NCBI RefSeq assembly: GCF_000025305.1 | Contig: NC_013740.1 | Location: forward strand, 1,612,001-1,676,000 | DNA from: Acidaminococcus fermentans DSM 20731 | GTDB lineage: Bacteria > Bacillota > Negativicutes > Acidaminococcales > Acidaminococcaceae | Direction: 5' to 3' | DNA: 64,000 bases | Shown: positions 12,953 to 17,230 of the stretch, piece by piece | Position numbering within the stretch: the first letter of the stretch is position 1 | Layout: each line of letters opens with the position of its first letter | Position numbers and translations under genes: made by a program | The notes under the pieces: generated by a model | Databases searched by the model: none | What the model was told of the DNA's origin: nothing | Seen by the model: the letters and a program-made list of their open reading frames with translations, nothing else

Positions 12953-15118
12953 TCACTCCCCATACCGCTTCAGCCGCTCTGCCAGGAGGCTGTAGCGCTT
13001 CCGGGTCCGGTCGTTTTCCACGGCGGTGCGCAGGGCCCGCCGGCTGCCGGCCAGGTACACCTGCTTCTTGGCCCGGGTGATGGCGGTGTAGAACAGGTTC
13101 CGCTGGAGCAGGATGTAGTGGCTCAGTACCAGGGGCATCAGCACCACCGCATATTCGCTGCCCTGGCTTTTGTGGACGCTCATGGCGTAGGCCAGCCGCA
13201 GATCAGAGACTTCCGCTCCCTCATAGGTCACCGCTTCCCCTTCCGCCCGATCCGGGAAATCCACGGTCACATGGGCCCCCTGGATGCTGCAGATCCGTCC
13301 GATGTCCCCGTTGAACACGTTCTTGTCGTAATTGTTCCGGATCTGCATCACCTTGTCCCCTTCCCGGAGCAGCAGGAAACTGCCCCGGTACTCCTGTTTC
13401 TCCGGGGACGGGGGGTTCATCCGGGCCTGGAGCATGTTGTTCAGGTTCTCCACCCCGCACAGGTTCTTGTGCATGGGGGTCAGCACCTGGATGGCGTCCT
13501 GGGGCTGCCGGGCGGCCAGATGGACGTAGAGATCCACAATGTAGTGCATGGTCTCCTCTTCCGTGGCGAATTCCCGGAAACGGAAATCCTTTTCCCCTTC
13601 CCACTGGGGCATCAGTCCCTGGTTGATCCGGTGGGCATTCCGGACAATGGGGCTCAGCTCCGCCTGCCGGAACACGTTTTCCAGACGGACAATGGGCATG
13701 GTGCCGCTGCGGATTATGTCCTGGAGCACGGAGCCGGGGCCCACGCTGGGCAGCTGGTCCACGTCCCCCACCAGGATCAGCCGGCAGCCCAGGGGCAGGG
13801 CCTTCAGCAGGTTGTACATGAGCACGATGTCCATCATGGAGGCTTCGTCCACGATCACCGCATCGGCTTCCAGGGGATTGTCCTCATTCCGTCCCCAGAA
13901 GGAATCCCCCTCCCCGTTGGGAGTGTATTCCAGCAGCCGGTGCACGGTGAGGGCCGGCTTCCCGGCGCTTTCCGACAGCCGCTTGGCCGCCCGTCCCGTG
14001 GGAGCCGCCAGCAGGATCTTGCAGCCGGCCTGTTCCATCACCGACAGGATCCCCTTCACCACGGTGGTTTTCCCGGTACCCGGGCCCCCGGTAAGGACGA
14101 ACACCCCGTGATCCACGGAAGCCTTCACCGCTTCCGCCTGTTCCGGTGCCAGTCGGATCCGTTCATCCCGTTCCCATTCCCGGATGATCTTCTGGTAATC
14201 CACCTTCCACAGGGCGTTCACATTGTCCCGGAGGGCCAGCAGCCGGTGGGCCACCCCCTCTTCCGCCCGGTACAGGTATTCCGGGTACACGCACACATGG
14301 TCCCCCCGGTCCTCCGCCCGGAGCAGGTTGTCCCGGAGCAGCTGGTCGAACACCTGGCGCACTTCCAGAGGGTCCACCTGGAGCACCCTGGCCGCATTGC
14401 CCACCAGCCAGGAATCCGGCACGCAGGTATGCCCCTGGCCGGCCCCCTGGAGCAGGGTATAGTGGATCCCCGCCCGGATCCGTTCGTCCCCGTGCTCATC
14501 CATCCCCAGGTTCCGGGCCAGGGCGTCCGCCGTCCGGAACCCGATGCCTTCCACATCTTCCGCCAGGCAGTAGGGATTGTTGCTGATCCGGGTCACCGCC
14601 GTGCTGCCGTAGAGGGCCTGGATCCGGGGGGCAAAATTCCCGCTGATCCCGTGGCTTTCCAGGAAAAACACCAGCTCCCGGTTTTCCCGGAGTTCCCCGT
14701 AGGAGGTGATGATGGCTTCCGCCTTTTTCTTGCCGATGCCGCTGACCTCCCGGAGCCGTTCCGGGAATTTTTCCAGCACCTCCAGGGTGTCCTCCCCGAA
14801 CTGGTCCACGATCCGCTGGGCCATGGCCGGGCCCACTCCCTTGAGCACTCCGCTGCCCAGCATCCGCACCAGGCCTTCCGCCCCCCTGGGCTGGACGGCT
14901 TCCCAGCTCTGGGCCTGGAACTGCCGGCCGAACCGGGGATGGTCCCCCCAGATCCCGGCCAGCCGGATCTGCTCTCCCGCATAAGGCGCCTGCCCCCGGT
15001 AGACGATGGAAATGGTCCCCACTTCCGGGTTCTCGCCCCGAAAGACACTGAAGGTGCCTGTGTCTGCCTGGAAGACGATGTTTTTGACAGTGATTTCGAT
15101 GGTAACGGATTCGGCCAT
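12953..15118 (-). CDS. recD2: RecD2 family ATP-dependent DNA helicase
   Basis: A 721-residue superfamily 1 5'-3' helicase of the RecD2 type, with the long N-terminal region that distinguishes it from RecBCD RecD. An OB-like N-terminus is followed by helix-hairpin-helix repeats (GVLKGVGPAMAQRIV, VSGIGKKKAEAII), then Walker A TGGPGTGKTT near residue 345, the DEAS box in AVIVDEASMMD, and the C-terminal motifs YAMSVHKSQGSE and FYTAITRAKK. RecD2 acts in DNA repair and replication-fork stability in bacteria lacking RecBC. It is monocistronic; the gap to comFC holds repeats. Confidence 0.95.
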   Translation of the reverse strand: MAESVTIEITVKNIVFQADTGTFSVFRGENPEVGTISIVYRGQAPYAGEQIRLAGIWGDHPRFGRQFQAQSWEAVQPRGAEGLVRMLGSGVLKGVGPAMAQRIVDQFGEDTLEVLEKFPERLREVSGIGKKKAEAIITSYGELRENRELVFFLESHGISGNFAPRIQALYGSTAVTRISNNPYCLAEDVEGIGFRTADALARNLGMDEHGDERIRAGIHYTLLQGAGQGHTCVPDSWLVGNAARVLQVDPLEVRQVFDQLLRDNLLRAEDRGDHVCVYPEYLYRAEEGVAHRLLALRDNVNALWKVDYQKIIREWERDERIRLAPEQAEAVKASVDHGVFVLTGGPGTGKTTVVKGILSVMEQAGCKILLAAPTGRAAKRLSESAGKPALTVHRLLEYTPNGEGDSFWGRNEDNPLEADAVIVDEASMMDIVLMYNLLKALPLGCRLILVGDVDQLPSVGPGSVLQDIIRSGTMPIVRLENVFRQAELSPIVRNAHRINQGLMPQWEGEKDFRFREFATEEETMHYIVDLYVHLAARQPQDAIQVLTPMHKNLCGVENLNNMLQARMNPPSPEKQEYRGSFLLLREGDKVMQIRNNYDKNVFNGDIGRICSIQGAHVTVDFPDRAEGEAVTYEGAEVSDLRLAYAMSVHKSQGSEYAVVLMPLVLSHYILLQRNLFYTAITRAKKQVYLAGSRRALRTAVENDRTRKRYSLLAERLKRYGE

Positions 15119-15178: not shown

Positions 15179-15208
15179 TTGACAGTCCACGGCGAATTAC
15201 GGTATAAT
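15179..15208 (+). promoter_or_regulatory. Promoter of SpeD-like gene
   Basis: TTGACA at 15179-15184 and TATAAT at 15203-15208, spaced 18 bases. A perfect pair of hexamers 55 bases before the start codon. Confidence 0.8.
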
Positions 15209-15262: not shown

Positions 15263-15727
15263 GTGATTGGAAAAGGGACACAGGCAGCACTGGATATGTA
15301 CCGCTGTGCCGAAGACGTCGTATTTGACAAGGAAAAGATCCGGGACATCCTGGAAGAAGCCGCTGACCGGTTCAGTCTGAAGGAACTCGCGCTGTATGCC
15401 ACGGAAAATGATGAAGGGGACGACTTCTGCTTTGTCATGCTGTGCACCAACGGCCATCTCTTCCTCCATGTATTCCCCACCTACGGATATGTGGAAGCGG
15501 ATATCTTCACCCTGGAAAGCGGAGCCAACCCGGAACAGGTGGCGGTTTTCCTCCGGCAGGAATTCGGTCCGGATCAGTCCAAGCTCACCACCCTGAAGCG
15601 GGGGGATTACGGTTCCATCAAGGACATGAAACCCCAGCGGAAAAAGATGGTGAAGACCATGCGGCGGGCCAAGAACGCCGGGGCCAAACTGAAGAAATTC
15701 ATGACCTGGAAAAACACCAAAGAATAG
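15263..15727 (+). CDS. S-adenosylmethionine decarboxylase-like protein lacking catalytic Ser and Cys
   Basis: A 154-residue protein with the fold signature of the prokaryotic SpeD/SpeH family: HLFLHVFPTYGYVEADIFTL matches the family core (ESHLSIHTWPE, then DIFTC). In true enzymes a Ser in ESH self-cleaves to give the pyruvoyl cofactor and a Cys in DIFTC is the proton donor. Here the positions are Gly64 (NGH) and Leu84, and only His69 remains, so neither processing nor decarboxylation is expected. The basic tail from residue 120 (about KPQRKKMVKTMRRAKN) is extra. Start is GTG at 15263 with AAAGGAAG upstream. No other polyamine gene is nearby. Role unknown. Confidence 0.72.
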   Translation: MIGKGTQAALDMYRCAEDVVFDKEKIRDILEEAADRFSLKELALYATENDEGDDFCFVMLCTNGHLFLHVFPTYGYVEADIFTLESGANPEQVAVFLRQEFGPDQSKLTTLKRGDYGSIKDMKPQRKKMVKTMRRAKNAGAKLKKFMTWKNTKE

Positions 15728-15732
15728 GACGG

Positions 15733-15767
15733 AAAACAAGAGGCTCTCGTTGGCGCCTCTTGTTTTT
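15733..15767 (+). terminator. Terminator between SpeD-like and HAD genes
   Basis: AAAACAAGAGGC and GCCTCTTGTTTT form a 12-base stem around TCTCGTTGGC, with a run of five T. Confidence 0.85.
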
Positions 15768-15789: not shown

Positions 15790-16479
15790 ATGAAATACAT
15801 CTGCTGGGATATTGACGGTACCCTGCTGCTCACCAATTATGCCGGGGTGGCCGCCATGAAATCCACCATCATCGACCTGTACGGTCTGGACAATTTTGAA
15901 TTCACCTACGGCATGGCCGGACGGACGGACACCTACATCGCCCGGAAGGCCATCGAGGGGATCCAGGGCCGCTGCACCCCGGAAGAAGTGACCCGGATGC
16001 TCCAGGCCTACGGAAAAAAGCTGCCTGCTTCCCTGGTGGAAAAACAGGGCCATCTCCTGCCCCATGTAAAGGAGACCCTGGAGTGGATCCGGCAGGATCC
16101 GGATACCACCTCCCTGCTGCTCACCGGCAACTGCGAAGTGGCCGCCCATGCCAAGCTGGCCTATTTCGGCATCGAAGAGGAATTCGACTACAGCCGCAGC
16201 GCCTTCGGGGAAATCAGCGAGCTCCGGGACGATCTTTCCCAGGCCCTGTGGGACAGGGTGCGGAAAACGGATCCCGGCGTGACCCGGGACCAGCTGGTGG
16301 TCATCGGGGATACCCCCCACGACATTACCTGCGCCCAGGCCATCGGGGTCCGGAGCCTGATCGTGCTGAAGGGTTCCGCCTATGCCCCGGACCGTCTGGA
16401 AGCGTACCATCCCTGGAAGATCATCCCGGAACTGCCGGAAGATCCCCGGGATCTGAACGCCATCCTGGAGGAGGACTGA
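15790..16479 (+). CDS. HAD-superfamily hydrolase, phosphoglycolate-phosphatase-like
   Basis: A 229-residue HAD phosphatase. Motif I is WDIDGTLL with Asp7 and Asp9, motif II is LLTGN, and motif III/IV is VVIGDTPHDITCAQA. An alpha-helical C1 cap lies in residues 15-85. The family usually acts on small phosphoesters; the substrate is not evident. A GGAAGAACAACC leader precedes the ATG. A terminator separates it from the preceding gene, while its stop TGA is one base from the ATG of the pentapeptide gene, so those two form an operon. Confidence 0.88.
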   Translation: MKYICWDIDGTLLLTNYAGVAAMKSTIIDLYGLDNFEFTYGMAGRTDTYIARKAIEGIQGRCTPEEVTRMLQAYGKKLPASLVEKQGHLLPHVKETLEWIRQDPDTTSLLLTGNCEVAAHAKLAYFGIEEEFDYSRSAFGEISELRDDLSQALWDRVRKTDPGVTRDQLVVIGDTPHDITCAQAIGVRSLIVLKGSAYAPDRLEAYHPWKIIPELPEDPRDLNAILEED

Positions 16480-16480
16480 C

Positions 16481-17230
16481 ATGCTGTCTGGAAAAAAACT
16501 GCTGCTTACGGCCCTGCTGGTCCTTTCTGCCGCCCTGCCGGCGGCCGCCTACCGGCAAAGCGATGTGGACCGGCTGCTGGCCACCCGTTCCTGCCCCGGG
16601 GGAGATCTGCGGGGGGCCTACCTGCGGGATGAGGACCTGACCGGGGCCGATCTCCAGGGGGCGGATCTGAGCTACGCCAACCTGACCAACGCCATCCTGG
16701 AAAACGCCAGCCTGAAGGAGGCCAATCTCCAGAAGGCCAATTTCCGGAACGCCTACATGGCCGGGGTCAATCTGGAAGGGGCGGACCTTTCCAACGCCAA
16801 CCTGTCCCACACGGTGCTGAACCGGAGCTCCCTGGTGGGGGTCACTGCCTACCGGACCAGCTTCTCCCATGCCCTGCTGACCTTTGCCAACCTGTACACC
16901 GCGGACCTGCGGGAAAGCAATTTCGACTACGCCAACGGGGCCATGGCCAATTTCTTTTCCGCCAACCTGGCCCGGAGCTGGTTCTTCAGTACCCAGCTCC
17001 GGGGGGCCAATTTCACCTCCGCCAACCTGTACAACGCCCGGCTGCGGAAGGCCAGCCTGCCGGAAGCCAATTTCAAGAACGCCAATCTCATGAGTTCCAC
17101 CCTGGAAGACAGCAACCTGTCCCGGGCCGTCCTCACCAACGCCAACCTGGACGACGCGGACCTGAGCCACGCCAACCTGGAAGGGACCCAGTTCACCAAC
17201 GCCGATCTGGCGCTGGCGTACAGGAAATGA
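16481..17230 (+). CDS. Exported pentapeptide-repeat protein
   Basis: A 249-residue protein with a signal peptide (KKLLLTALLVLSAALPAAAY) and then about 35 tandem pentapeptides of the A(D/N)Lxx kind, such as ADLQGADLSYANLTNAILEN. These fold into a right-handed quadrilateral beta-helix. Intracellular members mimic DNA (Qnr/MfpA), but an exported one in a diderm suggests a periplasmic or surface structural role; the function is unknown. It begins one base after the HAD stop codon and ends at a bidirectional terminator shared with pta. Confidence 0.9.
   Translation: MLSGKKLLLTALLVLSAALPAAAYRQSDVDRLLATRSCPGGDLRGAYLRDEDLTGADLQGADLSYANLTNAILENASLKEANLQKANFRNAYMAGVNLEGADLSNANLSHTVLNRSSLVGVTAYRTSFSHALLTFANLYTADLRESNFDYANGAMANFFSANLARSWFFSTQLRGANFTSANLYNARLRKASLPEANFKNANLMSSTLEDSNLSRAVLTNANLDDADLSHANLEGTQFTNADLALAYRK

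Follow-up and report, generated by a model that had tools for sequence, protein, structure and literature searches.

The question raised by the locus at positions 15,263-15,727 of the stretch of DNA analysed here (the window, 64,000 nucleotides of Acidaminococcus fermentans DSM 20731) is what a relative of the SAM decarboxylase SpeD may be retained for, once the residues by which SpeD acts have been replaced. A preliminary description of the locus had placed the protein in the AdoMet_dc family, with both catalytic residues lost and an extra basic C-terminal tail, had taken the gene to be probably expressed from a near-consensus promoter ahead of a strong terminator, and had proposed as its role a regulator of a true SpeD, a ligand sensor or a nucleic-acid-binding protein. 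The features of the locus are as follows.

15263..15727, plus strand: open reading frame with a GTG start preceded by AAAGGAAGTGA, encoding the tail-type SpeD-like pseudoenzyme of 154 aa
15272..15595, plus strand: AdoMetDC-fold core, residues 4-111 (Pfam match over residues 10-114; AlphaFold2 model; superposition on Thermotoga maritima SpeD)
15452..15454, plus strand: codon of Gly64, aligned with Ser63 of T. maritima SpeD, where the enzyme cleaves itself to form the pyruvoyl group
15512..15514, plus strand: codon of Leu84, aligned with Cys83 of T. maritima SpeD, a catalytic residue
15596..15724, plus strand: basic C-terminal tail, with a net charge of +13 over residues 112-154, a predicted strand (125-130) and a predicted amphipathic helix (132-152)
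15179..15208, plus strand: predicted sigma-A/70 promoter TTGACA-N18-TATAAT, 12 of 12 positions, the promoters of the relatives being similar
15732..15767, plus strand: predicted intrinsic terminator hairpin followed by a U-rich tract (by folding, 13 bp, -19.3 kcal/mol, z -3.79)
12953..15118, minus strand: recD2, divergent neighbour, context only, an adjacency kept in Acidaminococcaceae and some other families
15790..16479, plus strand: HAD-like hydrolase, downstream neighbour past the terminator, context only

SpeD Ancestry and Loss of the Catalytic Residues

The placement in the AdoMet_dc family holds, the profile PF02675 being matched by the window protein at 80.8 bits (cut-off 25; E 1.2e-22), and the class 1b SpeD equivalog TIGR03330 at 53.7 bits, under its cut-off of 75.65. 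A missing profile match, named beforehand as an outcome that would refute the placement, was therefore not observed. Among solved structures, T. maritima SpeD (PDB 1tlu) is nearest in sequence, and the alignment with it reads, from T. maritima to the window protein, E62 to N63, S63 to G64, W70 to F71, E72 to T73 and C83 to L84, with the catalytic His68 kept as His69. Both catalytic losses claimed beforehand are thus seen on this alignment, and concern two of the residues (Ser63, His68 and Cys83) required for the self-processing and catalysis of SpeD (PMC10407285). Judged by its sequence, the window protein is a member of the AdoMet_dc superfamily by origin and, because the two defining residues are absent, not a SpeD enzyme. 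As the Ser that forms the pyruvoyl group and the Cys needed for catalysis are gone, the established chemistry of the family would allow neither self-processing nor a pyruvoyl-dependent formation of dcSAM, agmatine or putrescine, and it is close to certain that the protein has no pyruvoyl chemistry.

The predicted structure agrees with this ancestry. An AlphaFold2 model, built on a 36-row alignment, has the SpeD fold at a pLDDT of 89 overall (core blocks mostly 94-98), that is, an AdoMetDC half-sandwich, then the tail strand and tail helix at the lower confidence of 66-83. T. maritima SpeD is the top match by Foldseek (1tlu, E 2.8e-9), with its S63A mutant also among the best, and the model superposes on it with a TM-score of 0.87 by target length and an rmsd of 2.3 Å. 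The likeness to class 1b SpeD (T. maritima TM0655, PDB 1tlu/1tmi) includes the fold, the core length, Cys15, the positions of His64 and His68, the Asp80 equivalent and the KRG motif ending the core, whereas the window protein is without the self-cleaving Ser and catalytic Cys, has Trp70 and Glu72 replaced, stays under the TIGR03330 cut-off and carries the extra conserved basic tail.

The tail is as basic as had been stated, its charge of +13 over 43 residues standing against -12 for the core, and its helix is basic and amphipathic in the model. Its residues 113-142 (RGDYGSIKDMKP...RRAKNAGAK) include the motif RGDFGxxxDMKP and the RR..N.G.K tail; compared alone with Pfam, it matched no family and hence no known nucleic-acid-binding family.

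Expression Signals and Selection

The promoter proved stronger than the near-consensus one claimed at first, and the strong terminator was recovered by folding, the strict consensus terminator scan listing nothing at the 3' side of the gene; both predicted signals support the probable expression of the gene. No Rfam element lies near it, and its relatives gave only sub-threshold matches. Two genes downstream (16481-17230, plus strand), a pentapeptide-like ADLxxANL repeat protein with a probable signal peptide is encoded, and such a protein is found near the SpeD-like gene again in several Acidaminococcaceae loci.

A best -35/-10 match of at least 11 of 12 positions is present in 78 of 121 genes of the family (64%) vs. 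14 of 292 neighbouring genes (4.8%) and 0.8% of shuffled sequences, and each of the 11 Acidaminococcaceae relatives checked has, at the corresponding place, a promoter with 11 or all 12 positions matching. Because the match is exceptional, high and probably constitutive expression is predicted. The values of dN/dS between relatives lacking the Ser are 0.02-0.12, in core and tail alike, so the Ser-less genes are under purifying selection; the mean column entropy in these members is 1.65 bits in the tail vs. 2.28 bits in the core. Two residues, Arg113 and Pro124, are the same in 122 of 122 tail-type proteins. As read from these comparisons, selection keeps the promoter and the tail, and the core in part.

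A Class-Wide Family in the Negativicutes

Relatives of the window protein were found in 283 of the 300 sampled genomes of Negativicutes, and in 223 of the 227 of high quality, with the common architecture of an AdoMetDC-fold core and a basic tail RGDFGSxxDMKPxxK....RRxxNTGxKxxK. When 84,980 species genomes were scanned, the tailed proteins among the matches listed came from Negativicutes only, except for two MAGs titled Acholeplasmataceae, and all the other examined matches among those listed were tail-less canonical SpeDs. The tail-type sequences of the two MAGs (L171 and L172) are Acidaminococcaceae-like, L171 being identical to that of a genome of this family (G019), so the records seem to be wrongly titled or to come from contaminated bins. 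A restriction of the tail-type family to Negativicutes is strongly suggested by the matches listed. A phage origin was rejected, as no relative was found in viral contigs. The tail-type gene is absent, with SpeE kept, from G001 and G010, two nearly complete genomes belonging to the genus and family, so it can be lost and is dispensable in evolution. The notion of a dead SpeD-like protein stands for A. fermentans but not as a singular loss, since the trait belongs to a class-wide family. In kind, it is a family of pseudoenzymes, and no earlier description of it was found in the open-access literature searched.

The residues at the cleavage site were compared in an alignment of 122 distinct tail-type proteins and 23 canonical SpeDs. 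The tail-type proteins have there Gly (71), Ser (38), Cys (6), Ala (4) or Thr (3), the Ser being absent from 84 of 122 and the full Ser-His-Cys triad present in 23, while the canonical SpeDs have Ser at the Ser63 site and Trp at the Trp70 site in 23 of 23. The Trp70 position of the tail-type proteins is occupied by Tyr or Phe (119 of 122), rarely by another residue and never by Trp, so the pocket differs even in the Ser-bearing members. In a tree of the 145 rows, from which the cleavage-site column was left out and in which, the columns being few, many forks are unresolved, the tail-type proteins form one clade apart from the canonical SpeDs (SH-aLRT 99). Changes between Ser and other residues at the cleavage site number 9 on the best tree, and at least 4 are forced by well-supported branches.

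Relatives with another Ser in the cleavage loop had been envisaged as evidence against a dead protein. Those of the Sporomusa-like clade do have a Ser, at the exact cleavage site, but all the sampled Acidaminococcaceae have Gly. The Ser-less proteins share no single replacement nucleophile; Cys61, common in Acidaminococcaceae, was rejected as a substitute because it is missing from several Acidaminococcus members. The Ser-less proteins retain His65, His69 (93%), Asp11, Cys15 and Asp80, which could reflect a retained ligand pocket or unusual chemistry. The equivalent of His69 is lost in a few tail-type members, among them that of A. intestini (L169), where His68 is replaced by Arg and Pro72 by Glu, with the tail intact.

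Tail-type genes of the Sporomusa-like clade (e.g. L108, L139 and L150) have leaders of about 170 nt with a conserved GGCGUA...UACGCC pairing, for which these sequences were chosen, so the conservation is owed partly to that choice. In the helix, 5 of 9 pairs have changes on both sides (covariation 0.244 vs. 0.119 shuffled), and its 3' strand may pair instead with the AGGGGCGA Shine-Dalgarno. The leader is a candidate cis-regulatory switch of this clade, absent from A. fermentans.

Polyamine Genes, Gene Neighbourhood and Alternative Explanations

The regulation of a true SpeD, as proposed in the preliminary description, would make the protein a dead paralog that heterodimerises with SpeD and tunes it, like the Trypanosoma brucei prozyme. 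The trypanosome prozyme (PDB 5tvm; PMC5201418) is likewise a paralog of AdoMetDC fold that has lost catalysis but is maintained by selection, class 1b SpeD of bacteria dimerises via beta-sheet faces (PMC5201418), and most Negativicutes outside Acidaminococcaceae do possess a second, true SpeD alongside the tail-type gene. However, the prozyme descends from a eukaryotic enzyme of double length and depends on an active partner, and the tail-type family adds a basic tail of its own. The search of the whole A. fermentans genome (2,329,769 bp, one contig) for the second speD gave no other AdoMet_dc (PF02675) and no class 1a SpeD (TIGR03331), the control search for the latter giving a match; the search for class 2 SpeD gave no match in any control genome and so carries no weight. 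Most of the Acidaminococcaceae also have no second SpeD, and the tail-type gene is found in many relatives without SpeE, just as SpeE is found without it. By raw counts, 36 of 36 Ser-bearing rows with known counts are from genomes with at least two AdoMet_dc genes, but this link is gone once only independent pairs are counted, and the idea that genomes with a second SpeD tend to keep the Ser was rejected. The prozyme analogy thus fails in A. fermentans, because no partner is found there, and survives elsewhere in the class; as an explanation of the protein it is improbable.

Other derivatives of SpeD are comparable in part. The V. vadensis SpeD-SpeDC fusion (PMC10407285) is also bacterial and SpeD-like, with a degraded C-terminal domain and no self-cleavage, but this is a fusion domain in one lineage, whereas the tail-type proteins are free-standing, tailed and class-wide; the known dead AdoMetDC homologs (prozyme and the V. 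vadensis domain) differ from the tail-type family in origin, architecture and spread. The pyruvoyl arginine and ornithine decarboxylases SpeDA and SpeDC, which arose from SpeD, are likewise SpeD homologs without the matching SpeD/SpeE pathway role, but they keep the Ser and make the pyruvoyl cofactor (PMC10407285), which the window protein with its Gly64 cannot do. The main text of PMC10407285 makes no mention of Negativicutes.

An active enzyme without the Ser-derived pyruvoyl, either SAM lyase-like or with another nucleophile and possibly feeding SpeE, has an equally small chance. A. fermentans encodes a SpeE above the cut-off and no recognisable SAM decarboxylase to supply it with dcSAM, and the histidines and other residues kept in the Ser-less proteins, as well as a weak fold match to the phage SAM lyase (PDB 6znb, E 2e-3), point in the same direction. 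Yet the lyase, with a TM-score of 0.36 to the query and an rmsd of 8.8 Å, is not a convincing relative, no replacement nucleophile is conserved (Cys61 being absent from several members of Acidaminococcus itself), His69 is lost in some members, and SpeE and the tail-type gene each occur without the other, SpeE alone in G001 and G010. Besides, SpeE lies in a polyamine operon (2,103,256-2,109,129, minus strand) together with an OKR-type decarboxylase, an agmatinase, a carboxynorspermidine synthase-like protein and a carboxynorspermidine decarboxylase; because these genes fit a known pathway, we infer a carboxynorspermidine-type route to spermidine that would have no need of dcSAM.

The SpeE scores, compared by eye, are about 1e-51 to 1e-59 in the genomes with the tail-type gene as sole AdoMet_dc gene vs. 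about 1e-56 to 1e-74 in those with a second SpeD, with exceptions such as G031, which suggests that the lower-scoring SpeE is a subtype independent of SpeD.

The third possibility, rated slightly below the two preceding ones, is a polyamine- or SAM-sensing regulator linked to the polyamine-decorated peptidoglycan, which would act on decarboxylases in an antizyme- or sensor-like manner. The AdoMetDC fold derives from an enzyme of the polyamine pathway, and the family seems confined, among the matches listed, to the Negativicutes, the class in which the outer membrane is tethered to a peptidoglycan bearing cadaverine or putrescine (PMC10628300). However, co-occurrence at the level of a class amounts to a single evolutionary event and is weak evidence, and no polyamine, decarboxylase or peptidoglycan gene is found beside the tail-type gene in the loci examined. 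The gene stands alone in these loci, with no conserved operon partner: in Acidaminococcaceae, and in a few families besides, it diverges from recD2 (recD2-comFC), and in many others it is near ctsR-mcsA-mcsB-clpC, neighbours that suggest no functional link.

A decaying, functionless relic of speD, for which the repeated loss of the catalytic residues and the outright loss of the gene in some genomes could be adduced, is contradicted by the data on selection and retention (dN/dS, presence in 223 of 227 high-quality genomes, conserved tail and promoter) and has hardly any probability left.

Proposed Function

The best explanation, to which we assign a probability of about 0.6, is that the window protein is a non-catalytic descendant of class 1b SpeD that acts via its basic tail on an acidic partner, being the A. 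fermentans ortholog of the Negativicutes family. The AdoMetDC core would serve as a scaffold, probably dimeric, or as a ligand pocket, and the selected function would be binding through the basic tail to the acidic partner, at a high copy number. An abundant basic-tailed binding protein is favoured because it accounts for the retention of all three, namely the promoter, the tail and some of the core. We infer a binding partner for the tail-type protein, which would most likely be RNA, DNA or the ribosome, with a membrane or a protein as alternatives, since an amphipathic basic helix might equally bind these; a small ligand, for instance SAM or a polyamine, might exert control over the protein. 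From the other roles proposed at first, a nucleic-acid-binding protein or a ligand sensor is possible, the tail as the most conserved part favouring a role in binding. A further and doubtful step, less probable than the binding function itself, would be that the Negativicutes have made of a polyamine decarboxylase an abundant, non-enzymatic, basic-tailed regulator on RNA or DNA, for which the Sporomusa-like leader would be a candidate target of autogenous control.

The tail-type genes are liable to be named as SAM decarboxylases and then used as evidence for spermidine synthesis; most proteins of the family cannot function as such. An inactive enzyme retained throughout a class, with several losses of the Ser behind an extra domain and a strong promoter, represents a replicated natural experiment in the passage from enzyme to non-enzyme, and its real function is open to direct tests through the tail and promoter that have been conserved.
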